Positions 1 to 39,005 of a stretch of 46,882 nucleotides of DNA are shown here, in pieces. Under the pieces are notes generated by a model that saw nothing but the letters and a program-made list of their open reading frames with translations, was not told the DNA's origin and did no database searches. The stretch comes from Litorilituus sp. GTDB taxonomy: Bacteria > Pseudomonadota > Gammaproteobacteria > Enterobacterales > Alteromonadaceae. The position numbers and the translations under genes were made by a program. The number at the start of each line of letters is the position of its first letter. The first letter of the stretch is position 1. The stretch lies in NCBI GenBank assembly GCA_030754235.1, contig JASMAS010000013.1, forward strand, positions 1 through 46,882. Reading direction: 5' to 3'.

Positions 1-1988
1 CCTGAGGTTTTCATTTTTCCATCATTAACTTTGCTCATGCGGTTTGCCCAGTTAACAATTAACTCACTCGACCAAGTGTCCTGTTCAAACGTTAAACCCA
101 CCGACCCCATTAATGGATTGATACTTTCAATATACTCATCAGAAATATCATCCTTTCCTTCTTGAATTGCTGCATTAGCAAACAAGGTCAAATTTTCACT
201 AACAAAATAATTAACACCTAACTCAATGCCTTTGATGGTAACGGCTTCAATATTTTGATATTGCCATGTTAATTTCTGCACCGGTCCATAAGGCCCAACA
301 ACATCTTCAACCTTCACAACATCAATAGAAATGAAATCATCAAATTCGTTATAATAGGCTGCCGCACTAAAGGCAAAGTCACCTAGATGGCCTCGAACAC
401 CCACTTCAAAAGTATCACTCTTTTCAGGTGCTAAATCTTCACTTGGAATAATCTCATAATAATAACCAAAACCAATTTGAGAATGTTGAATATAGGCCAA
501 GTCATAGGCAGGTACTTTAAACCCTTGTCCGAACTGAGCAAAAGCAATTAAGTCCGGTTTAATTTTATATAAGGCGCCTAAATTAAAAGAAATATTGTTT
601 TTTTCAATGACAGAAAACTCTGAACCATCCAGTTTTAACGCGCCACCTGGATCCATTTTATAAGTATCAAAACGTGTCCCAGGAGTGACGAGGAGTTTCC
701 CCGCTAATAAACTAATTTCATCATTGATAAATATCCCCATGCGCTCAACATTATTCACAGGAAACTTATCTGTGGTTAAGTCTCTTTGTGGCTCATCAAC
801 GCCTTCAACTGTTCGAAACTCATAAACAGTACGCAATGTCTCTGTGGTTTCAATATCTACACCAAAACCAAGGGTATGGGTATCACCCAACTCTTTGGTC
901 GCATTAGATAAAAATCCCAAAGTGTCTTGCTCATAACTAGAGGTCTGCCACATATGACGCTTTTCAAATACGTTAAACATTGGCGCATTGATATCTAAGA
1001 ACCCGTACTGTACATCTTCTTGGCTCGTTTTTTTATTATAAAGGCTTATATTTAAATAATCATACCAGGCTGTTTGTGTTGTAGATTGATAATCAAGCTT
1101 AACGGAGTGACTTGCTTTATCACCACGACTATTTTCATCGGCAATAATATAACCGTAACTCGCTAAAGAACGGAATGCGCTCAGTAAACCACCTGCGCTT
1201 TCTCCCTTAGTATCTTGCTGCCAGTAATCAGCAATTAAACTAATAAAGTTAGCCTCATCAATATTGTATTTCGCTTTATATAAAGCACTCTGGGAAGTAA
1301 TATCGAAAGGATTGTTGTCTTTAGCATAGTTTTGCTGCTCATCACCGTCACGGTAAGTAAGATTTAATAATTGTTCAAATCCTCCCGTTTTTAATGCTAA
1401 GGTGGTGCCAATATTTGTCTGCTCACCGTCACCTGTATAACCAAGTGTTACATTACCTGCAAAATCCTCACCATCACTTAATACATCACTCGCATCTTTG
1501 GTGGTAAACACAACAATGCCGCCAAGTGCATCTGAGCCATATAAAGAAGAAGCAGCACCTTTAGCAACTTCAACTTGTTTTAAAGTATCTGTTTCAACAA
1601 AGCCTCGGCCAACAAAGTTATTAGCACCATTAGCACCATAGCCTTCATTCATACGCATACCATCTTTAATCATCAAGATGCGATCACCACCCATGCCACG
1701 CACAATAATATTTTGTGCACCGCCTGTAGAACCAGTTACATAAACACTTGGATCATATTTGAATAATTGATTCATGTCGGCAACAGCATTTTTTTCAAGA
1801 TCTTTAGCAGTAACAACAGAGATACTACCTGCAACATCTTTTAAAGGTTTTGCTGTCCTTGAACCACTAACCACGATAATTTCTAAGTCTTCTACCTGAT
1901 CATCAGGTGCATAAGCATTAGCATTAGGTGTACTTATAACAGCAGCGGCAACAGCAATTGCTATGGCCGATTTAATTAAACTATTCAT
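1..1988 (-). CDS. hmuR: TonB-dependent outer-membrane receptor, HmuR-like (haem/metalloporphyrin uptake), C-terminus cut by window edge
   Basis: Reading leftward from the ATG at 1988, one open frame of 662 residues runs off the left edge. Residues 1-25 are a signal peptide ending in ANA. A TonB-box-like stretch (EIIVVSG) follows near residue 35, then a plug domain (IIVRGMGGDRILMIKDGMR, later SSLYGSDALGG) and a long beta-barrel. Haem receptors carry FRAP and NPNL boxes with a histidine between them. Here FKVP is at 490-493, His502 follows, and a PSEDLAPEKSDTFEVG stretch starts at 515, so a degenerate version of that signature is present. An AGGAA ribosome site lies 8 bases before the start. 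It is divergent from the hmuU-hmuV-hmuS-like operon with a Fur box between them, which points to iron control. The substrate is inferred from neighbours; another metal chelate is possible. Confidence 0.85.
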   Translation of the reverse strand, partial: MNSLIKSAIAIAVAAAVISTPNANAYAPDDQVEDLEIIVVSGSRTAKPLKDVAGSISVVTAKDLEKNAVADMNQLFKYDPSVYVTGSTGGAQNIIVRGMGGDRILMIKDGMRMNEGYGANGANNFVGRGFVETDTLKQVEVAKGAASSLYGSDALGGIVVFTTKDASDVLSDGEDFAGNVTLGYTGDGEQTNIGTTLALKTGGFEQLLNLTYRDGDEQQNYAKDNNPFDITSQSALYKAKYNIDEANFISLIADYWQQDTKGESAGGLLSAFRSLASYGYIIADENSRGDKASHSVKLDYQSTTQTAWYDYLNISLYNKKTSQEDVQYGFLDINAPMFNVFEKRHMWQTSSYEQDTLGFLSNATKELGDTHTLGFGVDIETTETLRTVYEFRTVEGVDEPQRDLTTDKFPVNNVERMGIFINDEISLLAGKLLVTPGTRFDTYKMDPGGALKLDGSEFSVIEKNNISFNLGALYKIKPDLIAFAQFGQGFKVPAYDLAYIQHSQIGFGYYYEIIPSEDLAPEKSDTFEVGVRGHLGDFAFSAAAYYNEFDDFISIDVVKVEDVVGPYGPVQKLTWQYQNIEAVTIKGIELGVNYFVSENLTLFANAAIQEGKDDISDEYIESINPLMGSVGLTFEQDTWSSELIVNWANRMSKVNDGKMKTS

Positions 1989-2095
1989 ATTCTATATTCC
2001 TGTTAGTTTTTAATGTTAACCCAATCAAACAGGACAATTAAGACTGAGATTATTTGATGGCGCACATAATACAGATTTAATTACTTTTGTAAACA

Positions 2096-2118
2096 CAAAC
2101 GATAACAATTATCGTTTG
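2096..2118. promoter_or_regulatory. Fur box in the divergent hmuR/hmuU control region
   Basis: Two perfect 10-bp inverted arms, CAAACGATAA and TTATCGTTTG, flank a 3-bp centre CAA. The core GATAACAATTATC differs from the 13-bp Fur core GATAATNATTATC at one position. It lies 108 bp upstream of the receptor start and about 60-110 bp upstream of the channel gene, so one site could repress both directions when iron is sufficient. The palindrome is seen directly; Fur binding is inferred from the consensus. Confidence 0.8.
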
Positions 2119-2176
2119 CAAAAAACAGTTGTTTCAGGTAAATTAACGCCAAATTTAGTCTATCTCGTAGGATGTA

Positions 2177-2773
2177 TTGGTTACCCATATCACTACGACA
2201 CTCATCATCAGCATAGGTTTTACTGTAATGACTATTCAATCTATCGAATCCATCATGGCCAATGTGTCAACGTTGTTAATGACACCTGTTATTATCGCAA
2301 TCGTTTTATTACTGATTTATGCAGTATTCACTATAGGTCGCTTTGTTTCTCAATATGCGCTAAGGAAAAAAAATGCCATTGCTTATGTTAAACAAGTCAA
2401 TAATCAACAAAATCAAGTAATAGCTGGCTACCCTATTCATAATTACTTTGTTACTAACCCCAAAGCCAGTGAAGATGAATTAGAAGTTTTCGCCTTAAAA
2501 AAATTAGAGACACTGCGCATTGTCACACGAATTGCACCAATGTTAGGGCTTATCGCGACGATGATCCCCATGGGACCTGCTCTACAAGCTATGGCTGACG
2601 GCAATATTCAGGGTATTAGTGAAAATTTAATTATTGCCTTTGCTGCGGTTATTTGGGGGTTAACTATATCAACCTTAACCTTCTGGCCAGCGTCAGTAAA
2701 AAAACGTTGGTGTGCACAAGAGCTGATCAATATTCGAAAACTAAAGGATGATATTACTGGAGCGGCAATTTAA
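2177..2773 (+). CDS. hmuU: MotA/TolQ/ExbB-type proton channel family protein, HmuU-like
   Basis: This inner-membrane protein has up to 198 residues and three membrane segments: one near residues 35-60 (VIIAIVLLLIYAVF), one in the conserved APMLGLIATMIPMGPAL block, and one in IIAFAAVIWGLTISTLTF. The last two make up the ExbB/TolQ/MotA signature that forms a proton path with a partner subunit. The partner is probably the DUF2149 gene that overlaps its stop codon by one base (TAATG). The start is uncertain. TTG at 2177 has AGGA only 4 bases away, while ATG at 2228 (MTIQSIES) has TAGG about 10 bases away and gives a more usual 181-residue protein. Family knowledge links such pairs to CobN-like proteins in haem uptake loci; energising the adjacent TonB-dependent receptor is inference. 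Confidence 0.82.
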   Translation: MVTHITTTLIISIGFTVMTIQSIESIMANVSTLLMTPVIIAIVLLLIYAVFTIGRFVSQYALRKKNAIAYVKQVNNQQNQVIAGYPIHNYFVTNPKASEDELEVFALKKLETLRIVTRIAPMLGLIATMIPMGPALQAMADGNIQGISENLIIAFAAVIWGLTISTLTFWPASVKKRWCAQELINIRKLKDDITGAAI

Positions 2774-3102
2774 TGCGATTTTTAGAGGAAGATGAGGAGC
2801 TTAATCCTATTGTGAGTGCCGTTAATTTAGTCGATGTGTTTTTAGTCATTATCGCTGCACTACTAATTGCCCTAGCACAAAGTCCACTTAATATTTATGC
2901 TAATGACGATGTCACGGTAATAAAAAATGCGGGTAAACCCAATATGGAAATGATTGTTAAAAAGGGCAAGGAAATTAAACAGTTTAAATCTAATGGCGCT
3001 ATTGGCAGTGGTGAAGGATCACGCGCAGGTGTTGCATATAAAATGACAGATGGCAGTTTTGTCTATGTCCCTGAAAGTGACCAGCAGCCATCACAAAAAT
3101 AA
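2773..3102 (+). CDS. hmuV: DUF2149 family protein, HmuV-like partner of the ExbB-like channel
   Basis: A 109-residue protein with one N-terminal membrane segment (residues 21-39, VDVFLVIIAALLIALAQSP) and a short periplasmic domain. It ends in GEGSRAGVAYKMTDGSFVYVPE, the typical DUF2149 C-terminal motif. The single N-terminal anchor plus periplasmic tail is the layout of ExbD/TolR/MotB-type partners, although the sequence is not ExbD. The start ATG overlaps the upstream stop (TAATG), so translation is coupled, and a 25-base gap separates it from the CobN-like gene. In Porphyromonas hmu loci this family also sits between the channel gene and other hmu genes. A role as the channel's second subunit is inferred. 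Confidence 0.8.
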   Translation: MRFLEEDEELNPIVSAVNLVDVFLVIIAALLIALAQSPLNIYANDDVTVIKNAGKPNMEMIVKKGKEIKQFKSNGAIGSGEGSRAGVAYKMTDGSFVYVPESDQQPSQK

Positions 3103-3127
3103 CGATGACCTAACTAGAGCAAAATTT

Positions 3128-6100
3128 ATGAATAAAATTTTCCCGCTACTTTTTCTGATATCGACTTGTTTTTTTAGCCTGCGTATTCAGGCAGAAATGA
3201 CCGATAACACCCAAACTAAACCAAAAATAATGATCATGATGTCTAGTCATGCATCAAAACCCAAAGGTGAACTATTAAAGAATTTAGCAAAAGATCTACC
3301 GTTTACTCTGGTAAATTTTAACACCCGAGGAAAATCAGAAGACGAAATAAAAACTCAATGGCAAAGTGCTAAATTAATTATGCTAGATGGCATTAATCCA
3401 ACGCTATCTAAATTTATGTTTTCCAAATATGAGTCATATTTAACGGCTTACCCTAATGTTCCAGTTATTTCTTTAGGTGATTTAACTAACGAAAAAACCA
3501 ATCAAGGGTTAACTGCTGATCAACAAACCACATTAGGGCAATATTATAACAATGCTGGTCAAAAAAATTTCGCAAATATGATGGAGTATATTAGCCAAAA
3601 AATCCTCTCAACGACTCCTTTGGCAACAATCCCAAAACCAATCATAGTGCCAAGTACAGGCCTTTATCATGATGAATTCACAACCAAACTAACGAGTGAT
3701 GAAGAGGCTTTTTTTACTTGGTTAGCCCCCCAAAAAAATATCCCCGTCATTGCAATAGCAATTCACAGAAACATTGTTGATTATGAACAAAAACAGGTTG
3801 TTAACGCGATAATTCAAGGGTTAGAAAAAAAAGGAGCAAAAGCGTTTGGTTTTTATTTTGATGACAATACCAAAGATGATTATACCTATACAGACTTATT
3901 ACTTGATGAACAAAATAATAGCAGAGTAAACCTACTAATCAATTATCGGTCTTTACATTATGTGGAAAAACGTCGAGGTGAATTTGAAGCATTAGGTGTA
4001 CCTGTTTTACATGCACTTAATTACAATGCTGGAGATGAGAAAGCTTTTGATCAAGACCATGCTGGCATATCCCCTTCGTTAACACCTTTTTTTCTTGTTA
4101 TACCTGAAGATACAGGTAGTACTGATCCCACAATGATTGCCGCTAAAAAAAATGGTGCTAAAGTTGTTATGAAAGCACAGCTTAATGCTTTAGTAGAGCG
4201 TGCTTACAACCATGCTTCTTTAGCTAAAACACCTAACAAAAATAAAAAAGTAGCGACTTTTATTTGGAATTATCCTCCCGGTGAAAAAAATATTGGTGCT
4301 GCCTTTTTAGATGTACCTTCTTCAATTGAACAAATAACTAAAGAGATGAAAAAAGAGGGGTATAACGTTGATATCAAAAGCGCTGAATATTTGATTGAGT
4401 CTGCAGGTAAACTATTACGCCCTTTTTATCGCGGTGAAGATATTCATGGTTTGATTGAACAAGACTTAGCTGATTACTTGCCTTTATCTACCTATAAAGC
4501 ATGGTTTTCACAATTACCTGACTCAGTTAAAAAACCGATTACTGAGCGTTGGGGAACCCCAGAAGAAAATAGCTTGTTAACTGAGTACAATGGGGAGCAA
4601 GCTTTTGTTATACCACGACTGAACTTAGGGAACTTAATTGTTTTGCCCCAAGGTATGCGTGGCAAAAACAGTAATGAACACAGTGCCTTATATCACAACA
4701 CAAAAACACCAATTAATCACGCTTATATGGCATTTTACCTCTATGCTCGTGATATTTTTGGAGCCAACGCTTTTATTCACTTAGGTACCCATGGCTCACA
4801 AGAATGGCTAACAGGTAAAGAGCGTGGTTTATCTGTTTATGATGCCCCAAATTTAGCCATTGGCAACTTACCAGTATTTTATCCTTATATTATTGATAAT
4901 GTAGGTGAGGCCATGCAAGCCAAGCGCCGTGGGCGAGCAACCATCATCAGTCATCTGACACCTGGATTTGCTAAAGCAGGTTTATATACCGAAGTGGCTA
5001 AATTAAATGAATTAATCAGCAATTATATGATGCTTGAGCAAGGTCAAACCAAACAAAACACCCAAGAAAAAATCATTAATTTAGCTACTAAGCTCAATAT
5101 TTTAGCTGATCTTCAGCTCAATGCAGAAACTGTCGCGAATAACTTTCCTAAACAAATAAGTACCCTGCAAGATCACCTTAATGAGCTAGCACAGCAAAGC
5201 CAGCCACTAGGTGTGCATACTTTTGGTTTACTGCCTAAAAGTGCACATTTATATACCACCATATTACAAATGTTAGGAGAAGAGTTTTCCCAGCGCGCCA
5301 AACAATATGAGCAAGATAATAATTTAGCCTTACCAGCAACAAAGCAGCGAGATGAACGCAAGGTGAAACAACTTGAAGCTTTAGCGGGCTATCAATTATT
5401 AAAGGTATATTTTGCTGGCACAAACACCAATAAAACACTGCCTGATTTATCAGCGCAATTAAAGGTAGATTTAGCACAAGCAAAAACCTATTGGGATAAC
5501 TTTCAACAAATGCCGGAAACCGAAAACCTATTACGTGCACTAAATGGTGAATATATTAATGTTAGCCATGGTGGTGATCCTATTAGAAACCCCGATGTTG
5601 TACCCACAGGTAGGAATTTAATTGGCTTTAACCCAGCTAAAGTCCCCAGTAAAGAAGCGTATCAAGCTGGTGTAACCTTAATGGATAAAACCATTGAAAA
5701 CTATTATGCAAAGCATGGCAAATACCCAGAAAAACTCGCTTTTTCTTTATGGTCACTTGAAACCATGCGTCATCAAGGTGCACTAGAGGCACAAATTCTA
5801 CATGCCTTAGGCTTAAAGCCTAAATGGAACCAGCAAGGTAATATAATAGGCACAGAAGTAATCGACTATAAAACGCTGGGGCGCCCAAGAATTGATGTCA
5901 CTATTACCGCTACAGGCTTATACCGAGATGCTTTTCCTAACGTTATGTTATGGTTAGCTAAAGCTATCGATAAAGTAGCGAAAATCAAAGAAGACAATAA
6001 TTTTGTGTATCGCCACACCAAAGCGTTAAAAGAACAATTATTAGCGGCAGGTAAGACTAAAGAAGATGCTAACTATTTATCCTCTATCCGTATTTTTTCC

Positions 6101-7129
6101 AATGAAACCGGAAACTATGGCACTGGATTAGCTGGTGCAAGCTTAGCTTCAAATACTTGGGAAGATGATAGTAAGCTGGCTGATTTGTATCTAAAGCGCA
6201 TGGGATATGCATTTGGAAGTGACGAAAAACGCTGGAGTGAAAATGTTGCCGATAGCGAGCTTTATTCAAAAGTACTCTCAGGTACGGATGCGGTCATTTT
6301 CTCTCGTTCAACCAACCTATATGCGCTAATGACGAATGATGATCCGTTTCAATATTTTGGTGGAATCGGTTTAGCCGTGCGCCATTTAGACGGTGAAACA
6401 CCCGAAATGTATGTCTCGAACTTACGCCGAAAAGATAATATTAAAGCACAAACCATGGAGCATTTTTTAAACCAAGAAATGCGCAGTCGCTACTTCCACC
6501 CTCGTTGGATCCAAGCGATGCAAGAGTCAGGTTATGCCGGTGCAACAGTAATACTTGATCGCATGAATAATATGTGGGGCTGGGAGGTGATGACACCAGA
6601 AGCGGTACGTGACGACCAATGGCAAGAGTTCTTTGAAGTATATATCGAAGATAAATATAACTTAGATATGCGTGAATTTTTTCAAAAAAATAATGCCCAC
6701 GCATTAGCCCAAATTATTGAACGTATGCTTGAAGCAGAGCGCAAAGGCTATTGGAAAACTGACGAAAAAACCATTAAAACCATGGTAAAAACTTACGCTG
6801 AATTAGCAAAGGAGTTTGATGTTATTACCGACAACAACAAATTCAATGACAACCTTAAAGCGCAAGCAGCGGGCTTTGGGTTATCAGCACAATTACCTGA
6901 TAGTATGCAACCACAAGCGACTACTGAGCGTGTCAAAACACAATCAGCGGCAATCGAGAAAATTGAAGGACAAAAACTTGAAGAGCAACACACTGAAGTT
7001 AAATCTATTGATGAAGATTACACTTGGCTGTCGCTATTGCTTTTAGTGTTTTTTGCTGGTTTTGTCAGTAATTTCATCACTACTAAGCCTAAAATAAGCA
7101 AAGTTGTTGCCCTGAAAAAAGCCGCTTAA
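3128..7129 (+). CDS. hmuS: Periplasmic, membrane-anchored CobN-like chelatase, HmuS-like (probable haem/metalloporphyrin dechelatase)
   Basis: A 1,333-residue member of the CobN/Mg-chelatase large-subunit family. The start at ATG 3128 is chosen because it gives a clean signal peptide (MNKIFPLLFLISTCFFSLRI, then QA) and has AGAG upstream; a longer frame begins at 3050 inside the previous gene. The family's HLGTHG...E motif is intact with His551, His555 and Glu559 (HLGTHGSQEWLTGK). Further conserved blocks include NLGNLIVLPQGMRG and NVSHGGDPIRNPDVVPTG. A membrane segment lies at about 1300-1318, followed by a lysine-rich tail. Cytoplasmic CobN, which inserts cobalt in B12 synthesis, has neither signal nor anchor and works with CobS/CobT, which are absent here. 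With a TonB receptor and the hmuU/hmuV pair next to it, it fits HmuS, described in Bacteroidota as removing metal from haem. Substrate and direction are inferred. Confidence 0.85.
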   Translation: MNKIFPLLFLISTCFFSLRIQAEMTDNTQTKPKIMIMMSSHASKPKGELLKNLAKDLPFTLVNFNTRGKSEDEIKTQWQSAKLIMLDGINPTLSKFMFSKYESYLTAYPNVPVISLGDLTNEKTNQGLTADQQTTLGQYYNNAGQKNFANMMEYISQKILSTTPLATIPKPIIVPSTGLYHDEFTTKLTSDEEAFFTWLAPQKNIPVIAIAIHRNIVDYEQKQVVNAIIQGLEKKGAKAFGFYFDDNTKDDYTYTDLLLDEQNNSRVNLLINYRSLHYVEKRRGEFEALGVPVLHALNYNAGDEKAFDQDHAGISPSLTPFFLVIPEDTGSTDPTMIAAKKNGAKVVMKAQLNALVERAYNHASLAKTPNKNKKVATFIWNYPPGEKNIGAAFLDVPSSIEQITKEMKKEGYNVDIKSAEYLIESAGKLLRPFYRGEDIHGLIEQDLADYLPLSTYKAWFSQLPDSVKKPITERWGTPEENSLLTEYNGEQAFVIPRLNLGNLIVLPQGMRGKNSNEHSALYHNTKTPINHAYMAFYLYARDIFGANAFIHLGTHGSQEWLTGKERGLSVYDAPNLAIGNLPVFYPYIIDNVGEAMQAKRRGRATIISHLTPGFAKAGLYTEVAKLNELISNYMMLEQGQTKQNTQEKIINLATKLNILADLQLNAETVANNFPKQISTLQDHLNELAQQSQPLGVHTFGLLPKSAHLYTTILQMLGEEFSQRAKQYEQDNNLALPATKQRDERKVKQLEALAGYQLLKVYFAGTNTNKTLPDLSAQLKVDLAQAKTYWDNFQQMPETENLLRALNGEYINVSHGGDPIRNPDVVPTGRNLIGFNPAKVPSKEAYQAGVTLMDKTIENYYAKHGKYPEKLAFSLWSLETMRHQGALEAQILHALGLKPKWNQQGNIIGTEVIDYKTLGRPRIDVTITATGLYRDAFPNVMLWLAKAIDKVAKIKEDNNFVYRHTKALKEQLLAAGKTKEDANYLSSIRIFSNETGNYGTGLAGASLASNTWEDDSKLADLYLKRMGYAFGSDEKRWSENVADSELYSKVLSGTDAVIFSRSTNLYALMTNDDPFQYFGGIGLAVRHLDGETPEMYVSNLRRKDNIKAQTMEHFLNQEMRSRYFHPRWIQAMQESGYAGATVILDRMNNMWGWEVMTPEAVRDDQWQEFFEVYIEDKYNLDMREFFQKNNAHALAQIIERMLEAERKGYWKTDEKTIKTMVKTYAELAKEFDVITDNNKFNDNLKAQAAGFGLSAQLPDSMQPQATTERVKTQSAAIEKIEGQKLEEQHTEVKSIDEDYTWLSLLLLVFFAGFVSNFITTKPKISKVVALKKAA

Positions 7130-7379: not shown

Positions 7380-8783
7380 TTACTTAATAGAGCCCCTGTA
7401 AAAACCTGTAACTGATTCCTCTTCCCTATTCCATAATTTTTGGTTTTCTTTTATGGAAAAGAACTCATTTCCATGCCAACAACGAGGCAATAAATCTAAC
7501 TTTTTCCTTTCGTTATAATTTGATACAAGTAACTCAAGTATTTTATTTAATCGTTCCTTACTTAAACGAGCAATTTTTTGTGCTATTTCCGGAAAATACA
7601 AATTATTCTGCTTTTTCACTGCCATATTTCGGCCATAACCAATAAATGTTAGTTTTCTTGTCGCAACACGACAAAGCGGCTGTTCTGGTCGCAATGGGTA
7701 TAGCCTGTTTACAATAGCATACTCATAACTATTGACCCATCGCCCTATTTCATCTTCTGGTATGTAAATAACACCATAACCTTGAGGAAACATACCTGTT
7801 ATTTGATATAAGGCGTCAACCGCTCTTTGTGAACAGACACCTAATTCAGCGTTCTTGTTCAGTACCTGGTAAACCTTAGGGAGCAACTTATAGTTATAAT
7901 TTTCTTTAGTTGACATGATTATTGAGGTATAAATTTGTGGTACCTTGAGCAAATTGCCGATACTTTGTTTTGGCTTTGCATTTCCTTTAAGTAAGCGCTT
8001 GATAAAATGATGCTTCTCTCGCTCATCAATAACCCACTGTTCACGCTCTTTTCTTGAATTACCCACATAACTTCCCCCCCCTAAACCATCAGTAAAGTAA
8101 TTTAAAGTATGTTTGTAACTTAGCTGCAACAGCTTCTTTCGTTGTTCTGGTTCTAAGGTTCGGTGGATGTTTTGTTGCTTATCTTCACCAACTAAAATAG
8201 CCTGAGCTTGGCCATGATAATTACCTATATCTTGTAAGATGGCAGCCATAATCAACGGCACTTTGACTTGATCATTAAAACGTTTTCTGGCATCTAAAGA
8301 GAAGTTTTTATAAGTTGTTTCTGGGTACTCTGCCAATATTCTCGTCATATTAGCATCGCTTATCTTGTTATCTAATAATAGGCGATCTAGCAACCGTAAA
8401 CTTAAAACTGCTTTATATAAGGCTTTACATTGTTCATTATTAATGGCTACTTTATTTCCTTCTGTTGGACTAATAAGCTGAATAGTGCCAAGTAATTGTG
8501 CAGATTTACGGTTAGTCTCTTCAAAACTTTCCCCTTCTATTAAGTCAATAATTTCGTGACATATACCTAATAAATGTTCAGTTCTAGCCGTTTTATCTGA
8601 ATCTTGTAAAGCAGAGTTTTCTACCATTGATTTATTATTTTTATCAGAGCATTCTTGAGCATCAAAGAAATGAATCGCACGTTCAAGTACAGAATCATTA
8701 AGCTTAGTTCTGCCGTAAATTTTACTAATTAAGACATGCACTTGATGAGTAAAATAGGTTCTATATGGAAAGTCTTTGGCCAT
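7380..8783 (-). CDS. Degenerate HD-GYP-like protein, probably catalytically inactive
   Basis: A 467-residue, apparently cytoplasmic protein. Residues 175-230 follow the HD-GYP pattern: VPLIMAAILQDIGNYHGQAQ aligns with the LHDIGK...P region, and RTLEPEQRKKLLQLSYKH with the TPEE..xxxxHP region. Residues 320-380 (AVDALYQITGMFPQGYGVIY, then LRPEQPLCRV) match the C-terminal part of HD-GYP proteins (YPxGxxV...RPVVRV). The metal-binding His-Asp pair is Gln184-Asp185, and no GYP triplet is recognisable, so c-di-GMP hydrolysis is unlikely. A binding or scaffold role is possible. The HD-GYP assignment is by eye on short motifs and is moderate. It stands alone between convergent hmuS and an insertion-debris gap. 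The ATG start at 8783 has no clear ribosome site. Confidence 0.55.
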   Translation of the reverse strand: MAKDFPYRTYFTHQVHVLISKIYGRTKLNDSVLERAIHFFDAQECSDKNNKSMVENSALQDSDKTARTEHLLGICHEIIDLIEGESFEETNRKSAQLLGTIQLISPTEGNKVAINNEQCKALYKAVLSLRLLDRLLLDNKISDANMTRILAEYPETTYKNFSLDARKRFNDQVKVPLIMAAILQDIGNYHGQAQAILVGEDKQQNIHRTLEPEQRKKLLQLSYKHTLNYFTDGLGGGSYVGNSRKEREQWVIDEREKHHFIKRLLKGNAKPKQSIGNLLKVPQIYTSIIMSTKENYNYKLLPKVYQVLNKNAELGVCSQRAVDALYQITGMFPQGYGVIYIPEDEIGRWVNSYEYAIVNRLYPLRPEQPLCRVATRKLTFIGYGRNMAVKKQNNLYFPEIAQKIARLSKERLNKILELLVSNYNERKKLDLLPRCWHGNEFFSIKENQKLWNREEESVTGFYRGSIK

Positions 8784-13588: not shown

Positions 13589-14656
13589 CTATAAATGATA
13601 TGGCTTACTCAAACGGTGTACTGATTTAATAAAGTGTCCTGCATGCTCTGGGTTTACATCAGGGTGAATACCATGCCCCAAATTAAACACATGCCCAGTA
13701 CCACCTTTACCAAAGCCAGTTAATATTTTATCAACTTCTTGTTCAATACGTGGCAATGGTGCATACAGCATTGAGGGATCCATATTTCCTTGTAGTGCGA
13801 CTTGATCGCCAACACGGGCTTTTGCATTTTCAATATCAATAGTCCAATCTAGCCCAACAGCGTCACAACCTGTTGCTGCAATGTCTTCTAACCACATACC
13901 GCCGTTTTTCGTAAATAATGTTACAGGCACTTGTCGACCATCAGCATGACGAGTTAAACCATCAACAATTTTTGCCATATATTGTAAAGAAAACTCTTTG
14001 TAGTCACGTGGCGACAATACACCGCCCCAGGTATCGAAAACCATAACAGATTGTGCACCTGCCGCAATTTGAGCATTCAAATAACTAATCACTGAGTTTG
14101 CTAGTTTATCTAATAATAAATGTAATGTTTGTGGATCACTAAACATCATTTTCTTCACTTTAGTGAAGCCTTTAGAGCTACCGCCTTCAACCATATAAGT
14201 AGCTAATGTCCAAGGACTACCTGAAAAACCGATAAGAGGCACTTCTCCTTTCAGCTCTTTTCGAATAGTGCGTACGGCATTCATTACATAACCTAATTCA
14301 TCTTCAGGATCTGGAATACCAATTTTTTCAACCTCTGCTTTACACGTAAGCGGGTTGGTGAATTTAGGACCTTCACCGGTTTCAAAATACAAACCTAAGC
14401 CCATAGCATCAGGAATAGTCAAAATATCACTGAATAAAATTGCCGCATCAAGTGGAAAACGACGAAGTGGTTGAATGGTTACTTCACACGCTAAGTCAGC
14501 ATCACGACAAACCGACATAAAATCGCCAGCATCTTTGCGTACAGCCCTGTATTCAGGCAAATAACGTCCTGCTTGACGCATCATCCATACAGGAGTGTAA
14601 TCTACAGGCTGCTTTAATAGCGCACGTAAATAATTGTCATTTTTTAATTCAGTCAC
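13589..14656 (-). CDS. hemE: Uroporphyrinogen decarboxylase
   Basis: A 355-residue cytoplasmic enzyme that removes four carboxyl groups from uroporphyrinogen III to give coproporphyrinogen III in haem synthesis. The signatures [16 protein letters not shown], with the substrate-binding Arg residues, FSDIL with the catalytic Asp, and [17 protein letters not shown] are intact. The GTG at 14656 is preferred over the TTG one codon upstream: it restores the usual N-terminus MTELKND, and GAGGA is 7 bases away. The gene ends at a shared terminator with metJ. It follows nothing else on its strand, so it is probably monocistronic. Confidence 0.97.
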
Positions 14657-14974
14657 CAATAAATCCTCTAAATATATTTTTTGCCCTGTTCATATATCTA
14701 CTTTTTAGCATCACGAACAATTTATGGGGCGTATTCTAGCACTTGCGGTATTTTGAATCCATGCACCAAATCAATTCCTTTTTGTTAATAAAAAAGACTA
14801 GCCAACAATAAATTTTTGTCCTTATATTATTTTAGGAATAACACCCAATCAGCCAACAATCAGTTACTTAGCTGAAAAAAAGAGAGAATAACACTGAACT
14901 ACGATAAAAATCGTCGAGTTTATGCTCTATTAAAGTTGTTGCAGCAGGTAAAATGCTTTGATATAAAATAGCTG

Positions 14975-28930: not shown

Positions 28931-29416
28931 TTACTGCTTAATTAATTGCAAACGGCGCACACGTACTTCACCGGGTTTGTCACCTTTGGCTAAATCAATG
29001 GCTTGCACTTGTAAACCTTCATCATTTGCTAAATGCTCTAACCAATATAATAACTGCGTAAAAGGTGTGCTATCTAGCCAAACTTGCAGATTATTCCCTT
29101 GAGGTTGCATACGGCTAATCGTTAGTTGATGCTGAGTCGCGCTTCGGTTAACAATGCTAGACAAACTTCCTGTTGTTTTTTTGCCCTGATTATTTGATCT
29201 AATATTTTGGTAACGAGCCGTATTTTCATCCACCCAAGTCAGTAGCGTTTGACGATTGGAAAGTGTTTTTTCTGCGGCAATTAATTTGGTGTTAAGAGGC
29301 TGCCACACCACACTATATAGTAAAAAAATAGCGATAGCTGTTCCCATAACTTGTACTAAGCGTTGCTCCCGTGAATTTAATTGTTCCCACCAAATTTTTG
29401 CCGATGATAGATTCAT
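28931..29416 (-). CDS. gspM: Type II secretion protein M
   Basis: A 161-residue bitopic inner-membrane protein with one membrane helix (VMGTAIAIFLLYSVVWQP) after a short cytoplasmic tail with WWEQLNSREQRLV, and a ferredoxin-like periplasmic domain. It forms the platform with GspC, GspF and GspL. Its ATG overlaps the gspL stop by one base (TAATG), so the partners are made together. Confidence 0.92.
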   Translation of the reverse strand: MNLSSAKIWWEQLNSREQRLVQVMGTAIAIFLLYSVVWQPLNTKLIAAEKTLSNRQTLLTWVDENTARYQNIRSNNQGKKTTGSLSSIVNRSATQHQLTISRMQPQGNNLQVWLDSTPFTQLLYWLEHLANDEGLQVQAIDLAKGDKPGEVRVRRLQLIKQ

Positions 29417-30717
29417 TATGAGCGCCCCTTCGTTGATCTTTTACTGTGGTTACTTGCACTACTGGTGACACTAAATGAACCCGTAATTTGTTCACCTTGG
29501 CTATTTTGAGCACCTTGTTTTACGGTTAACTTGGCATCATTTAAGGCATTTTTAAAACGTTCAAAGTGCTGATATTCTCTTGCTATTGCCTGTAATCTAA
29601 GCTCTTGACGCTTACTGTCAAATTTTAAAGATTCTGGTTTCAATTCGGGTACTTTAGCAAACGCTGGTTGAACTTTAGAAAGCATAGCTAAGAAGCCCTC
29701 GCCGCTACCTACAGCGCCAAAGCCGGCTATTTTTTTCTTTAATTGTGACTTAATTGTCCCAATACGCACTTTTTTAGTTTGTGGAAATGCCTTTTTATAA
29801 GTGGAAATAATTTGTGCTTCTACATGAGCTTGCTGAGCATTAAATTGCCAAAGCTGTGCACTTTTATAGCTGATATTTAACAATAGAGCACAGGCAGCAA
29901 AACCAGCAGCCCACAACCAGTGCTTAAAAGCTTTTGAGTGTACTTCATTAGTTTTAAACTTTCCTTGTAGTAAATTAAAGTCACTTTTTTGACTGTGCTG
30001 GGCCAATAATGCAAGCGGCAATTCTTCCTCTTGAGGGTGAATAACTAATTGCTCTGCGTGCGGTAAAGCTGAGTAGGCATTAATCACTAAATGCTGGTTT
30101 TCTATTGGGCTTTTAGCATCAGTGTGAGCTTGTGTTTTACCGTTAAAAAGGTGCTGGCTAGCAAATCGCCATGTTGCTGCATCTAAAGTACATCCTTGCC
30201 ATTGACCTTGACGGACTATTATTTGTGATTTATCGGTATTATTTAAAGCAATAGCACTCCATTGGTTAGCGATTAATGGCATAGCTAACACATCAAGCTG
30301 CATACTTTTGGTTTTGATGTCAGCATCTTTAAGCCAAGTTTGCCAAGCTTGCATTTGCGTATTCTCAACAACCGCAACAAAACAATTATGCCCAAATTCA
30401 TCTTCATTAAGATCTGCATAAGCAAAGAAAAGCTGCTCAACATCTTGAGCTAACTCATCTTCTAACATATAAGGTACGGCTGAGTGTAATGCCCGTTGTG
30501 ATTTTGTTGGCACAGTCAAGCTTTTTAAACTGACATCGCAGCCAGGTACAAAAACCTTAACAACTCGTTGCGCGGCCTTCTCTGTTAACTCAACTAATTG
30601 TTGAGCACGATGAAGCACGCCGCTGGCAATAATTTCTTGCTCAGTGGGGCTATAAATCAACCAAGATATCTCATCATTGGCATCAGAGCCAAGGCGTATA
30701 TATAAAATTTCGGCCAT
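29416..30717 (-). CDS. gspL: Type II secretion protein L
   Basis: A 433-residue protein with a cytoplasmic actin-like N-terminal domain (residues 1-250, with LTVPTKSQRALHSAVPYMLE) that binds the ATPase GspE. One membrane helix follows near 265-285 (WLWAAGFAACALLLNIS), then a periplasmic domain that binds GspM. A serine/lysine-rich tail closes it. The start overlaps the gspK stop (TAATG). Confidence 0.93.
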   Translation of the reverse strand: MAEILYIRLGSDANDEISWLIYSPTEQEIIASGVLHRAQQLVELTEKAAQRVVKVFVPGCDVSLKSLTVPTKSQRALHSAVPYMLEDELAQDVEQLFFAYADLNEDEFGHNCFVAVVENTQMQAWQTWLKDADIKTKSMQLDVLAMPLIANQWSAIALNNTDKSQIIVRQGQWQGCTLDAATWRFASQHLFNGKTQAHTDAKSPIENQHLVINAYSALPHAEQLVIHPQEEELPLALLAQHSQKSDFNLLQGKFKTNEVHSKAFKHWLWAAGFAACALLLNISYKSAQLWQFNAQQAHVEAQIISTYKKAFPQTKKVRIGTIKSQLKKKIAGFGAVGSGEGFLAMLSKVQPAFAKVPELKPESLKFDSKRQELRLQAIAREYQHFERFKNALNDAKLTVKQGAQNSQGEQITGSFSVTSSASNHSKRSTKGRS

Positions 30718-34078: not shown

Positions 34079-35314
34079 CTAACCACCCACTAAGGTATTT
34101 AACTGCAATATAGGTTCTAAAATGGCGACGACGATAAATAATACGACACTTGCCATCATCACCATTAACGCAGGTTCAAAAGCTTTTAATGAAATATTCA
34201 TTAATGCTTCAAATTCTCTATCTTGATTATCTGCCGCTCGCGCTAACATGTGTTCAAGTTGACCACTTTTTTCACCGCTAGCAATCATATGGAGCATCAT
34301 AGGGGGAAACAATTTGCTTTGCTCTAGTGCCATACGCAAACTTGTGCCTTCTCTCACTTTATTCGCAGCAGTTTTGACCTGTTGTTTAATAAATAAATTA
34401 TCAAGTACTTCACCCGAGATTTTCATGCTTTCCAATAAAGGGACTGCACTCGCCGTTAAAATACTTAATGTTCGAGCAAAACGTGCGGTATTGATACCTT
34501 TAGAAACTTTACCAATGCCAGGTAATGTAATCACCCGACGATGATAAGCAAGCCTAAATTTTGGTTTTTTCATTAACTGTGAAAACAGCAACACACTGAT
34601 TGCTATTAACAAGACCATGGCTAAGCCATAGGCTTGCAAGAACTCACTACTGGCGATTAAGAACTGTGTTGTTTGGGGTAAATTTTCCCCCATATGTTCA
34701 AATTGGCCCACAATTTGAGGCACGACTTTCGTTAGTAAAATAGCAATAACCCCGACAGCAACCACGGTCATAATAATAGGATATACCATAGCTTGAATCA
34801 GTTGAGAGCGCATTTGCTCGCGTTGCTCAGTATAGTCAGCTAAGCGGTTGAGTACTTTATCTAAATGGCCTGATTTTTCACCTGCAGCCACCATAGCACG
34901 ATATAAACGATTAAAGACGCGAGGATATTCAGCCATGCTTTCGGCTAAACCATAGCCTTCGGTCACTTTAGTGCGAACGCCCATAATCATACTTTTAATG
35001 CGGTTTTTTTCTCCCTGCTCAGCCACCGCCATTAATGATTCTTCTAGAGGGAGCCCTGATTCAACCAATGTTGCTAGCTGACGAGTAACTAATGCCAACT
35101 CTGCGGCCGAAATTTTTCCTCGATGAACACTTGACGATTGACCACCCACCCCACTAACTTTGCTTTTATTACTGGTTAATGTGGCAACCACGTCAATAGG
35201 CATTAAGCCTTGATCGCGTAATAACCCCCGCACTTGTCTTGGTGTATCACCTTCAATAACACCCTTTTTGGTTTTACCGCGGCCATCTACCGCTTGATAA
35301 TCAAAAGCGGCCAT
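34079..35314 (-). CDS. gspF: Type II secretion inner-membrane platform protein F
   Basis: A 411-residue polytopic protein with two repeated GspF domains and three membrane helices (near 170-195, 222-240 and 380-400). AAFDYQAVDGRGKTKKGVIE at the N-terminus and TRQLATLVESGLPLEESL and MIASGEKSGQLE are family motifs. It couples GspE movement to pseudopilus growth. The start overlaps the gspE stop (TAATG). Confidence 0.96.
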   Translation of the reverse strand: MAAFDYQAVDGRGKTKKGVIEGDTPRQVRGLLRDQGLMPIDVVATLTSNKSKVSGVGGQSSSVHRGKISAAELALVTRQLATLVESGLPLEESLMAVAEQGEKNRIKSMIMGVRTKVTEGYGLAESMAEYPRVFNRLYRAMVAAGEKSGHLDKVLNRLADYTEQREQMRSQLIQAMVYPIIMTVVAVGVIAILLTKVVPQIVGQFEHMGENLPQTTQFLIASSEFLQAYGLAMVLLIAISVLLFSQLMKKPKFRLAYHRRVITLPGIGKVSKGINTARFARTLSILTASAVPLLESMKISGEVLDNLFIKQQVKTAANKVREGTSLRMALEQSKLFPPMMLHMIASGEKSGQLEHMLARAADNQDREFEALMNISLKAFEPALMVMMASVVLFIVVAILEPILQLNTLVGG

Positions 35315-36870
35315 TAATCTTCTCTTGTCACGCGCAACACTTCTTCAAGTGTTGTTTGCCCTGACATGACTTTGTCAAAACCATCACGACGAATAGAAGC
35401 AGTATGTTGGCGAATATACTTTTCTATCGCTTGCTCACCATGGCCGTTATGAATTAATTCACGTACTTTATCATCCACAATGAGTAATTCGTGAATACCC
35501 GTACGGCCTCGATAACCTTTAAAGTTACATTCAACACAGCCCACGGCACGATAAATAACGTGTTTGTTATCAGTCGCTAAAGCTAGCAGTGTACATTCTT
35601 CTTCATCAGGTAGGTGACTTTCTCGACAGTGCGGACAAAGGGTTCGAACTAGGCGTTGCGCTAACACACCTAATAAACTTGAAGAAAGTAAAAAGGGTTC
35701 AACACCCATATCTTCCATTCGTGTTATTGCACCTGCTGCCGTGTTAGTATGCAACGTTGATAACACTAGGTGTCCGGTAAGACTAGCTTGAACACCAATT
35801 TGAGCTGTTTCTAAATCGCGTATTTCACCCACCATCACCACATCAGGATCTTGTCGTAAAATAGCCCTTAAGCCTCGGGCAAATGTCATATCAACTTTGG
35901 TGTTGACCTGTGTTTGTCCTATGCCTTCAATGGCATATTCTATAGGATCTTCTACCGTTAAGAGGTTGCGCTCCTTGGCATCAATTTGCGTCAATCCGGC
36001 ATATAAGGTGGTACTTTTACCTGAGCCAGTAGGGCCAGTGACTAAAATAATTCCATGGGGCTTTTCTATTAATTGGCTAAAGGCGTGACGGTTATTGTCT
36101 GTCATGCCTAAATCTTCTAAATCTAAACGTGCTGAGTTTTTATCAAGTAAACGCAATACTACTCGCTCGCCATGCCCTGTTGGCATTGTAGAAACACGAA
36201 CATCAACAGCCCTGCCTCCAATACGTAGTGAGATTCTACCATCTTGAGGAATACGTTTTTCTGCAATATCAAGTTTTGCCATTACCTTGATACGAGAAAC
36301 TAATAAAGAGGCCAGTTTACGATTAGGCTTTAATACTTCACGTAAAACGCCATCAACTCGAAAGCGTATTTGTAAGGCATTTTCAAACGTTTCAATATGA
36401 ATATCACTTGCACTTTCTTTGATCGCCTCACTCAACATAGCATTGATGAGCTTGATAATAGGTGCATCGTCTTCATTTTCAAGCAAATCTTCACTTTCAA
36501 CCATTTCATCAGCAAGTGAATATAAATCCACTTCATTGCCGATATCCTCCATCATTTGCTGTGCTTCTGACGAGTCGCGCTGATAGGTTTTTGTTAACAG
36601 TAACTCAAATGAAGCAGCATCTTTAACGTCAATGTTAAAGGGCGCTTTAATAATACGTCTTACCTCAACAATGGTCTCTAAGCTAATATTTTCCAGACAA
36701 TGTAAAGTATAACCACCTTGGTGCTGTATGATCAGCACACTAAAACGCTTAGCAAAAGCAAAAGGTAAGCGCCAAATATCCGTGCTTATTTCTTGCCCAT
36801 CAGGTTCTTCTGCTAAGATTGAGGCGTTATCCTGTGATAACGTATCTTGGCCTACATGGATATCCGCCAT
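35314..36870 (-). CDS. gspE: Type II secretion ATPase E
   Basis: A 518-residue cytoplasmic secretion ATPase. Walker A is GPTGSGKST (279-287), the Asp box is TVEDPIEY, Walker B is DVMVGEIRD and the His box is [12 protein letters not shown] zinc-binding module with two CxxC pairs (CPHC and CVEC) lies near residues 410-460. The N-terminal domain binds GspL. It is coupled to gspD upstream and gspF downstream by one-base TAATG overlaps. Confidence 0.97.
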
Positions 36871-39005
36871 TAGTCATTATTCTCATCTAATTGCTCTGCC
36901 TTACTTTGCTTTTCTTTTTGCAAGGTATCTTGATACTCATCAAAGGAAGGCGGCAGTGATAAGTCATCATTCCATTCTGGCAAAATAGGCAAATGCTCAT
37001 CGCTCATTAACGATAAACCTTCTTCTTGCTTGCGTATTTCATCGGCGCGCATAAAGTTATACTTTTCTTTTGCCATACTATTCATCACTTGAGCATCAGT
37101 GATAATAGTGGGTCGTAAAAACACCATAAGATTACGTTTACGCACACTGTTACTGGTTGAGCTAAATAAATGACCAATAAACGGAATATCACCAAGTAAG
37201 GGAACTTTTTGTACACTTTCTTGCACGTCTTCATCAATCAAGCCACCTAAGATGACTGTAGCGCCATTTTCGACCATCACTGAGGTTTTAATTTCACGCT
37301 TGTTAATAGAAATGTCGACACCGGTAGCGCCACTGACGGAAGAAACTTCTTGTTCAATGGTAAGTTGTACCCCATTACCTTCATTGATTTGTGGTGTCAC
37401 CAGTAATTTAATACCCACTTCTTGTCTGTCTACTGTTTGAAAAGGATTTGAATTATTACTACCAGTTTGCGAACCGGTGATAATTGGCACTTCTTGACCC
37501 ACTAAAAAGTAAGCTTCTTCGTTATCTAGGGTGGTAATGCTCGGTGTTGCTAAAATATTAGAATTGGTGTCACTACTCACCGCCTGCACAATAGCACCCC
37601 AGTCATTTTTCATTACCCCAAACATACCACCACTGACGGAGCCTAACACTTGAGCTAATAACGTGTAGTCACCTTTTGTCTCATTTTTATAATATCCTTC
37701 TTGAATCACTTCGTTATTATCATTAAGCAAAGCGGGTACAAACTCACCTTTTGTTGATTCAGCCGCTTTACCAGCTCCTGCAACATTAGAAAGAGAAGCA
37801 GGACCATTAGTAAACTGGGTAAAACCACCGGCTTCACTGTACCATTGCACACCAAGTTGCGCACCATCACTTTCAAACACTTCAACGATAATTGCTTCAA
37901 TATGTACTTGCGCTCGAGGTACATCAAGCTGGCGAATAACAGACTCAAGTGAAAGCAGCATATCTGGTTGACCCGTAATAACTAAACTATTGGTTGACTC
38001 ATGTGCTTCTATGCTAGTTTCACTTTTTGAGCTATTACGAGACTTTGTTTTAGTGGATTTTTCTTCTGAGGCAATTGTTTTGCTTACGCCATTGAGCACT
38101 TTGACTAAATCTTCAGCTTTTGCATACTTTAAATAATAAATGCGGGTATTACCGCTAGTTTCTAATTCACTGTCTAGGCGCTTAACTAACCGACTAACCC
38201 GTGCACGAGCTTGAACTTCGCCACTGACAATAACGCTGTTTGAGCGTTCGTCGGCAACAATTTTAGGAATTAAAAAGGTTGGTTGGCCAGCTTTACCGCC
38301 ACTGGGTTTATTCATCGCCTCAACAATACGCACCATCTCACCGGCAGAGGCGTATTGAAGCTTAATAATTTCAACATCTTGATCCCCGGCTCTGTCTACT
38401 CGCTCGATGATTTTAACTAAACGATTTACCGTAGCGGCAGTGCCCGTTAGCATAATAACATTGGCGGGGTCATAGTTGGTCACATTACCGCCACCTGCTT
38501 GATCAGAAAGCTGACGCAATAAGGGCACTAATTCTCGTACCGTAACATTTTTTACTTCAACAATGCGTGTCACCATTTCATCACCAGCGACATTGCTGCT
38601 ATTGCCAACAACGGGTATAGAAGACGTTTTGGCATCTTTATTTCGGATAACCTTAATAATATTATTATCCATTTCTACCGCGGCAAAACCATAGACTTCT
38701 AGCACATTCAAGAAGAATTGATAATATTGCTGTTCAGATAACAAATCATAGCTACGAACATTGACTTTACCACGCACGTTAGGGTCAACAATCATGGTTT
38801 TTTTCAGATTTTTGCCAACAATATTGACAAATTCGGTAATCTCAGTGCCTTTAAAGTTAGGGGAATATTGTGCCGCACTTGCTTGACCGATAGCGAAAAT
38901 ACCACTAAAAATAACCGCAGTTACTATCACTAGCCCCATTTGCTTAAGTTGCTTAAACTTGTGGGCAATGTGCTTAACCACTGAAACGTTTAAGTTGCTA
39001 ACCAT
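36870..39005 (-). CDS. gspD: Type II secretion outer-membrane secretin D
   Basis: A 711-residue secretin. The signal peptide ends at ASA before [17 protein letters not shown], which opens the N0 domain. N1-N3 repeats follow ([23 protein letters not shown] and [16 protein letters not shown]), then the secretin barrel with [20 protein letters not shown] and [15 protein letters not shown] charged C-terminal tail of about 60 residues could bind a pilotin, which is not in the window. AAGGAA lies 6 bases before the start. The 58-base gap to gspC is the last before the operon promoter. Confidence 0.97.

Follow-up and report, generated by a model that had tools for sequence, protein, structure and literature searches.

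A conserved gene set with a Fur-type operator and an exported CobN relative in Litorilituus, and its possible role in haem iron acquisition

The window analyzed in this study comprises 46,882 nucleotides of Litorilituus sp. (contig JASMAS010000013.1, here C13) and stems from a 3.3 Mb genome. At its start, a receptor gene on the minus strand lies opposite to genes for a MotA/TolQ/ExbB-like protein, a DUF2149 protein and a CobN-family protein on the plus strand (Table 1). This gene set is real and conserved, and a Fur-type operator accompanies it in marine Proteobacteria and some others. Judged from its sequence, the CobN-like enzyme is a new clade that is related to HmuS of the Bacteroidota yet not a member of it and that has two histidines of its own, and the system probably demetallates haem, i.e., removes its iron, in the periplasm. 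Papers cited here by PMC number are cited from the portions of their text that were available.

Conservation of the gene set and its operator

The loci named below are the best 80 of at least 303 found, ranked by similarity to the DUF2149 protein of the window, and classes A and B are the authors' own sorting by score. Class A is the clade of the window (40 rows with the window, 38 distinct enzymes, those of L034/L110 and L035/L129 being identical), and class B includes two pairs of duplicates from the same places (L077/L166 and L039/L168) and one aberrant row, L164. Class C holds cytoplasmic CobN (five rows), and class D exported CobN with MotA and DUF2149 genes, linked to cobalamin riboswitches. 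The receptor gene is divergent in 39 of the 40 class A loci; the sequence of the lone exception, L116, starts 171 bases before the channel gene, leaving the receptor out of view. Hosts of class A include Colwellia, Thalassotalea, Shewanella, Pseudoalteromonas, Microbulbifer and others. The system is patchy across the order: in the order-level sample, 33 of 295 genomes had any enzyme match and six carried class A (window included, one fragment), with an enzyme identity of 61-69% in the five relatives. Since the enzyme is kept in these five relatives and the receptor is divergent in nearly all class A loci, the gene arrangement is beyond chance. In Colwellia echini (G194; the window's genus), two sets were seen, one of class B that has a Fur-type site and one of class D that is linked to a riboswitch (L047, L039).

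The stretch that separates the divergent genes contains a perfect inverted repeat (2096-2118; 10-bp arms, 3-bp spacer), and the window genes look to be under iron control through the putative Fur-type operator within it. The upstream sequence is complete in 39 class A loci; with a threshold of at least 14 of 18 positions, a Fur-type site was found in 36 of these, and in 38 after two mis-set gene starts were rescanned (scores 17 and 15), L093 still being without a site. The same threshold was reached in 17 of 38 class B loci and in 8 of 212 control upstream regions from class A and B loci, at least two of which (L073, L074) precede receptor-like open reading frames (ORFs). Operator matches were scored against general Fur and Zur consensus strings, and the operator shuffles preserved base composition alone.

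The predicted receptor is of the haem type and PhuR-like. Although truncated, it scores 336.9 bits with TIGR01786 (haem/haemoglobin/transferrin; cut-off 323.75), and its 311.3 bits with TIGR01785 are just below the cut-off of 316.85. Its C-terminus is missing because the gene runs off the contig, class A receptors being mostly 718-742 amino acids long. The best solved relative is PhuR of Pseudomonas aeruginosa (8the; 176.8 bits, residues 35-657 of 662). An FKVP box and the Tyr that follows it (499), which aligns with a PhuR Tyr, are conserved in 36 receptors of the window kind. Conservation of the PhuR plug His is not evident. The TIGR01786 cut-off was also passed by both further class A receptors tested and by three of the six class B receptors tested.

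The CobN-like enzyme and its relation to HmuS

A PF02514 profile search of the whole window genome gave the CobN-like gene at 3128-7129 as the sole match. Hydropathy predicts hydrophobic stretches at both its N- and C-terminus, consistent with export and membrane segments as in HmuS; the C-terminal helix also occurs in HmuS and class D, whereas neither a signal nor a membrane helix is present in any of the five class C rows. A structure model of residues 21-1215 (mean predicted local distance difference test score 87.9) has the CobN/ChlH/HmuS fold, with CobN as the best full-length fold by Z. CobN and ChlH share the six-domain fold and the catalytic His with the window enzyme but are cytoplasmic and driven by the AAA+ partners CobST or ChlID (PMC12583661 and general knowledge).

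The Thr before the catalytic His (GTHG) is found in 40/40 class A and 38/38 class B rows; HmuS and ChlH, both of which have porphyrin substrates, share it, while Lys stands there in cobaltochelatases (GKHG) and Arg in the clade with B12 riboswitches; Lys as a mark of CobN is a reading of the five class C rows and Mycobacterium tuberculosis CobN. The two clade-specific histidines, His882 and His1124, are replaced by Thr in HmuS, CobN and ChlH and Asp in class D at the first position, and by Asn in all four at the second. The NDDPFQYFGG motif resembles CobN, and the enzyme passes the cut-off of the NCBIfam CobN equivalog NF004644 (1282.6 against 1248), the other CobN/BchH models listed being below their cut-offs.

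In comparison with HmuS, the HFG(T/A)HG motif is present as HLGTHG with His555, with a single F-to-L difference. Four other features of HmuS are not kept. LSLDHxxEFMGG (His1209, Glu1212) is replaced in 40/40 class A rows, which have Asp and Gln at those positions. At the head/neck haem site of Met79 and His254-Gly-Arg, the window enzyme has Ile and Ser; among the 40 class A rows His254 occurs in none and Met79 in two, and the placement of the gap near the HmuS His254 position, where class A has His277, is uncertain. The segment corresponding to the methionine-rich insertion counts 114-122 amino acids with 0-4 Met in the 40 class A rows, versus 170-281 amino acids with 9-26 Met in four Bacteroides rows. 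Strict membership of HmuS as defined in PMC12583661 was rejected on these four features, i.e., the insertion, Met79, His254 and LSLDHxxEFMGG. As a side observation, six class B enzymes (L078, L079, L136, L150, L151 and L152) keep a His at the position of HmuS His1209 (DHxxEY), in which they differ from the other members of the clade.

A quick maximum-likelihood tree of 69 rows recovers class A, classes A+B and class D each as a clade with support 100 and places class C with M. tuberculosis CobN, as well as ChlH, apart from A+B. HmuS is separate and joins A+B with support 92 on a long branch, a join that is not safe given a quick search with a long-branch warning, fragmentary PDB rows for CobN and ChlH and no approximately unbiased (AU) test. 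The underlying alignment left out CobN ORFs of at most 1200 or at least 1500 amino acids (e.g., L131, L124, L143, L147, L159 and L162) and the class D fragment L085. Cytoplasmic CobN identity was rejected on tree position and membrane segments.

An earlier note on this DNA had described a metalloporphyrin system of the HmuR-HmuU-HmuV-HmuS type. The receptor divergent from channel, DUF2149 and CobN-like genes that it saw is borne out by Pfam and TIGR matches and by the layout of class A, and export of the CobN relative agrees with alignment, tree and hydropathy; grouping with true CobN in a tree, which it had named beforehand as speaking against its proposal, was not found. The HmuS-type label itself has to be given up for the four features above, and the Fur-type operator was absent from its account. 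It took the gene set to be best described in the Bacteroidota; the set is also known as PA1922-PA1925 of P. aeruginosa (PMC4542158, PMC9431628), so it is not confined to the Bacteroidota, and the metal cannot be deduced from the gene set alone.

The hmuYRSTUV loci of the Bacteroidota, with HmuS of Bacteroides thetaiotaomicron (PDB 9d26), share with the window an inner-membrane-anchored exported CobN relative with the HxGTHG His and Ser1014, MotA/ExbB-like and DUF2149 partners, a haem-type receptor, and iron-responsiveness (PMC10434189). The window differs in its divergent receptor gene, its Fur-type operator, His882 and His1124 and its separate clade, as well as in lacking the methionine-rich insertion and Met79, His254, His1209 and Glu1212. 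Window-type hosts are marine, and the hosts of Bacteroidota hmu loci are anaerobes. Neither HmuY nor HmuT was seen beside the window genes as far as the contig reaches, its end cutting into the receptor gene so that anything beyond it is out of view, and no genome search for either was made.

Haem demetallation and the MotA-DUF2149 pair

The haem-iron reading draws on the Fur-type sites, the haem-type receptors, the GTHG Thr, the lack of riboswitches and the rest of the genome, which has one feoAB and a single FecCD permease, beside an ATP-binding cassette (ABC) ATPase and a corrinoid adenosyltransferase gene (CobA_CobO_BtuR). The whole-genome search gave no match for the HutX, HutZ, HemS and haem oxygenase families, and the lone, B12-linked FecCD agrees with the earlier note, which had described ABC-type haem importers as missing. 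A hemE gene (uroporphyrinogen decarboxylase; 13589-14659, minus strand) is present in the window; haem is hence probably synthesized by the organism itself, and external haem would probably be sought for its iron.

On iron scarcity, Fur would release the shared promoter region, and the PhuR-like receptor, energized by the ordinary TonB-ExbB-ExbD of the genome, would bring haem into the periplasm. The exported enzyme, with its C-terminal helix in the inner membrane, would bind haem in the cleft of the HLGTHG histidine and remove the iron, and the freed Fe(II) would enter via FeoAB, as HmuS and the gene content of the genome suggest. Together with DUF2149, the MotA-like channel would form a proton-driven unit on the chelatase, replacing ATP-driven CobST/ChlID.

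Quite possibly, though short of an even chance, exported CobN-type (de)chelatases have in MotA-DUF2149 a dedicated engine that runs on the proton motive force, i.e., a membrane counterpart of the CobST/ChlID motors. The pair would then serve separate clades, under Fur control for haem iron and under riboswitch control for corrinoids, with coupling via the C-terminal helix of the enzyme, and the window clade would be a haem demetallase powered by protons, its active site unlike that of HmuS. Among the 67 loci flanked by 6.5 kb on both sides, all found through DUF2149 itself (33 of 100 loci were too short), MotA adjoins DUF2149 in all 67, CobN lies within 6.5 kb in 65 and a receptor in 53; two of the 14 loci without a receptor are also without CobN. 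Three of the too-short loci show no CobN (L141, L146, L172). In the class-level sample, each of the 19 non-window DUF2149 matches above the family cut-off is accompanied by a CobN homologue within the sequence fetched (some being fragments, and 3-4 kb distant in L078 and L079), and the sole match below the cut-off has none. The pair stands without adjoining CobN or receptor in L109 (8450-9351) and L125 (8426-9330). These two and L172 look like counter-examples; a CobN-family match is present elsewhere in all three genomes (presence only).

The alternative, in which the pair takes the ExbB/ExbD part for the receptor, with an unpowered chelatase and the rest proceeding as above, is published for Bacteroides and is possible as well, if on balance doubtful. 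Three points weigh for it and against an engine on the chelatase: HmuU/HmuV are assigned to the receptor HmuR in PMC10100974 and PMC12583661; purified HmuS is active with NADH alone and no channel pair (PMC12583661); and in L141 (675-3112) TonB-ExbB-ExbD-MotA-DUF2149 stand in a row, followed by a pseudopilin-like ORF, with no CobN visible on the 3.7-kb contig. On the other side, the window genome has its own TonB-ExbB-ExbD (five ExbD matches in four places, one in the run ExbB-ExbD-ExbD-TonB-receptor), and in L154 (6409-9294) TonB, ExbB and ExbD genes directly precede MotA-DUF2149-CobN (exported), i.e., two proton channel sets in a row. DUF2149 accompanies exported CobN also where no receptor lies within 6.5 kb, and none of the five cytoplasmic CobN loci. 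Both DUF2149 and PF02514 are present in Methanosarcina acetivorans, an organism that lacks an outer membrane (each found by profile; co-occurrence in the genome only). Because the pair is found with exported CobN in 65/67 loci, under Fur or B12 control, and beside a separate TonB-ExbB-ExbD in two loci, it would serve the chelatase and not the receptor.

DUF2149 resembles ExbD/MotB in plan, but the window protein does not match PF02472 (ExbD/TolR), and the whole-genome search gave no PF02472 match on C13. When its profile was compared with solved chains, a designed protein was the sole match under 0.001, next to a weak MotB-related row (expectation value, E, 0.55), and the MotA profile gave weak PomA/MotA rows alone (E 0.047-0.07); neither was used as evidence. 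A cobN-exbB-exbD-tonB cluster without CobST is known from a plasmid of Geobacter lovleyi, its role being left open in the available text of PMC3403914. The literature searched, with most subscription papers beyond reach, held no assignment of the channel pair to a chelatase and no account of the marine set.

If the proposed role is true, iron removal with the ring left intact is not confined to gut anaerobes: some marine Gammaproteobacteria would use it against iron starvation, and haem could supply iron without a dedicated cytoplasmic haem importer or oxygenase. It would also give the uncharacterized family DUF2149 a job, and a chelatase could be driven by a proton gradient.

Other substrates and the neighbouring genes

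That the substrate is another iron tetrapyrrole or a metallophore instead of haem b is unlikely: such a substrate would suit the loss of the HmuS haem-site residues and the two clade-specific histidines, while the receptor family and the similarity to PhuR speak for haem.

A cobalamin or corrinoid system, in which the enzyme inserts or removes cobalt, is improbable to a high degree. Its case consists of the CobN ancestry, the CobN-like NDDPFQYFGG, the NF004644 score, the best full-length fold and class D, a sister clade that has these channel genes too. Class D shares the MotA, DUF2149 and exported CobN core with the N-terminal signal-like stretch and C-terminal helix, and differs in its GRHS motif, a length of about 1430-1570 amino acids and a cobalamin riboswitch in 12 of 15 loci (all but L048, L081 and L082). 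Both class D receptors tested are nearest to the B12 receptors of TIGR01779, below its cut-off. By contrast, no cobalamin riboswitch was found in the window or in the 28 further class A and B loci searched (0/29), the residue before the catalytic His is Thr and not Lys or Arg, the receptor is of the haem type, and the enzyme stands apart from cytoplasmic CobN and the B12 clade in the tree. Pfam searches of 15 window ORFs gave no cobalamin gene, in keeping with the earlier note, which had seen none nearby. Class D is comparable to the Hmu-like operon of Bacteroides fragilis headed by a riboswitch (PMC10100974); the suggestion in that paper that haem transport can be diagnosed from HmuV-type proteins does not fit the riboswitches and B12-like receptors of class D.

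Acquisition of zinc (or cobalt), as in PA1922-PA1925, is just as improbable and was rejected on operator type: that set of receptor, CobN-like, channel and DUF2149 genes (a likeness by gene set) is Zur-regulated and induced by zinc depletion (PMC4542158), with its receptor named CirA (PMC9431628), but a Zur-type core of at least 11 of 12 positions was found in 0/39 class A (and 0/38 class B) loci, against Fur-type sites in 38/39, and the receptor is of the haem type. The best Zur core match upstream in the window is 8 of 12; the sole Zur-like core of 11 of 12 in the consensus scan was seen in L125, and one Zur site is shown in PMC8456098. PA1923 was not among the loci fetched and is hence outside the tree.

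Table 1. Features of the receptor, channel and CobN-like genes, with positions in the window.
Feature	Position	Strand	Basis
TonB-dependent outer-membrane receptor, haem/haemoglobin type, C-terminus lost at contig end	3..1988	-	PF00593, PF07715, TIGR01786, PhuR 8the
Putative Fur-type operator AACGATAACAATTATCGTT, 15/18 consensus positions, within perfect palindrome 2096-2118	2098..2116	.	consensus match
MotA/TolQ/ExbB-like proton channel subunit	2228..2773	+	PF01618, 31.6 bits
DUF2149 protein, one membrane helix, ExbD/MotB-like in plan	2773..3102	+	PF09919, 98.3 bits
Invariant Asp in the membrane helix of DUF2149, residue 21	codon 2833-2835	+	N18 and D21 invariant, 25 sequences
Predicted exported, membrane-anchored CobN-family (de)chelatase, 1333 amino acids	3128..7129	+	PF02514, 1036.7 bits, nearly whole model; export from hydropathy
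N-terminal hydrophobic signal-like stretch of CobN-like protein, residues 1-22	3128..3193	+	hydropathy only
HLGTHG motif, His555 equivalent to HmuS His538	4778..4795	+	alignment
His882 of CobN-like protein	5771..5773	+	40/40 class A, 36/38 class B rows
NDDPFQYFGG replacing HmuS LSLDHxxEFMGG; Asp1072 for His1209	6335..6364	+	alignment
His1124 of CobN-like protein	6497..6499	+	40/40 class A, 37/38 class B rows
C-terminal membrane helix of CobN-like protein, residues 1301-1319	7028..7084	+	hydropathy

The ORF of the channel gene is open from a TTG at 2177, and the ATG at 2228 agrees with the start in relatives. Adjoining the system, an ORF of 467 amino acids (7380-8783, minus strand) has no Pfam or NCBIfam matches. 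Further along the window, type II secretion genes of the GspL, GspE and GspD families lie at 29416-30717 and 35314-39005, both on the minus strand.

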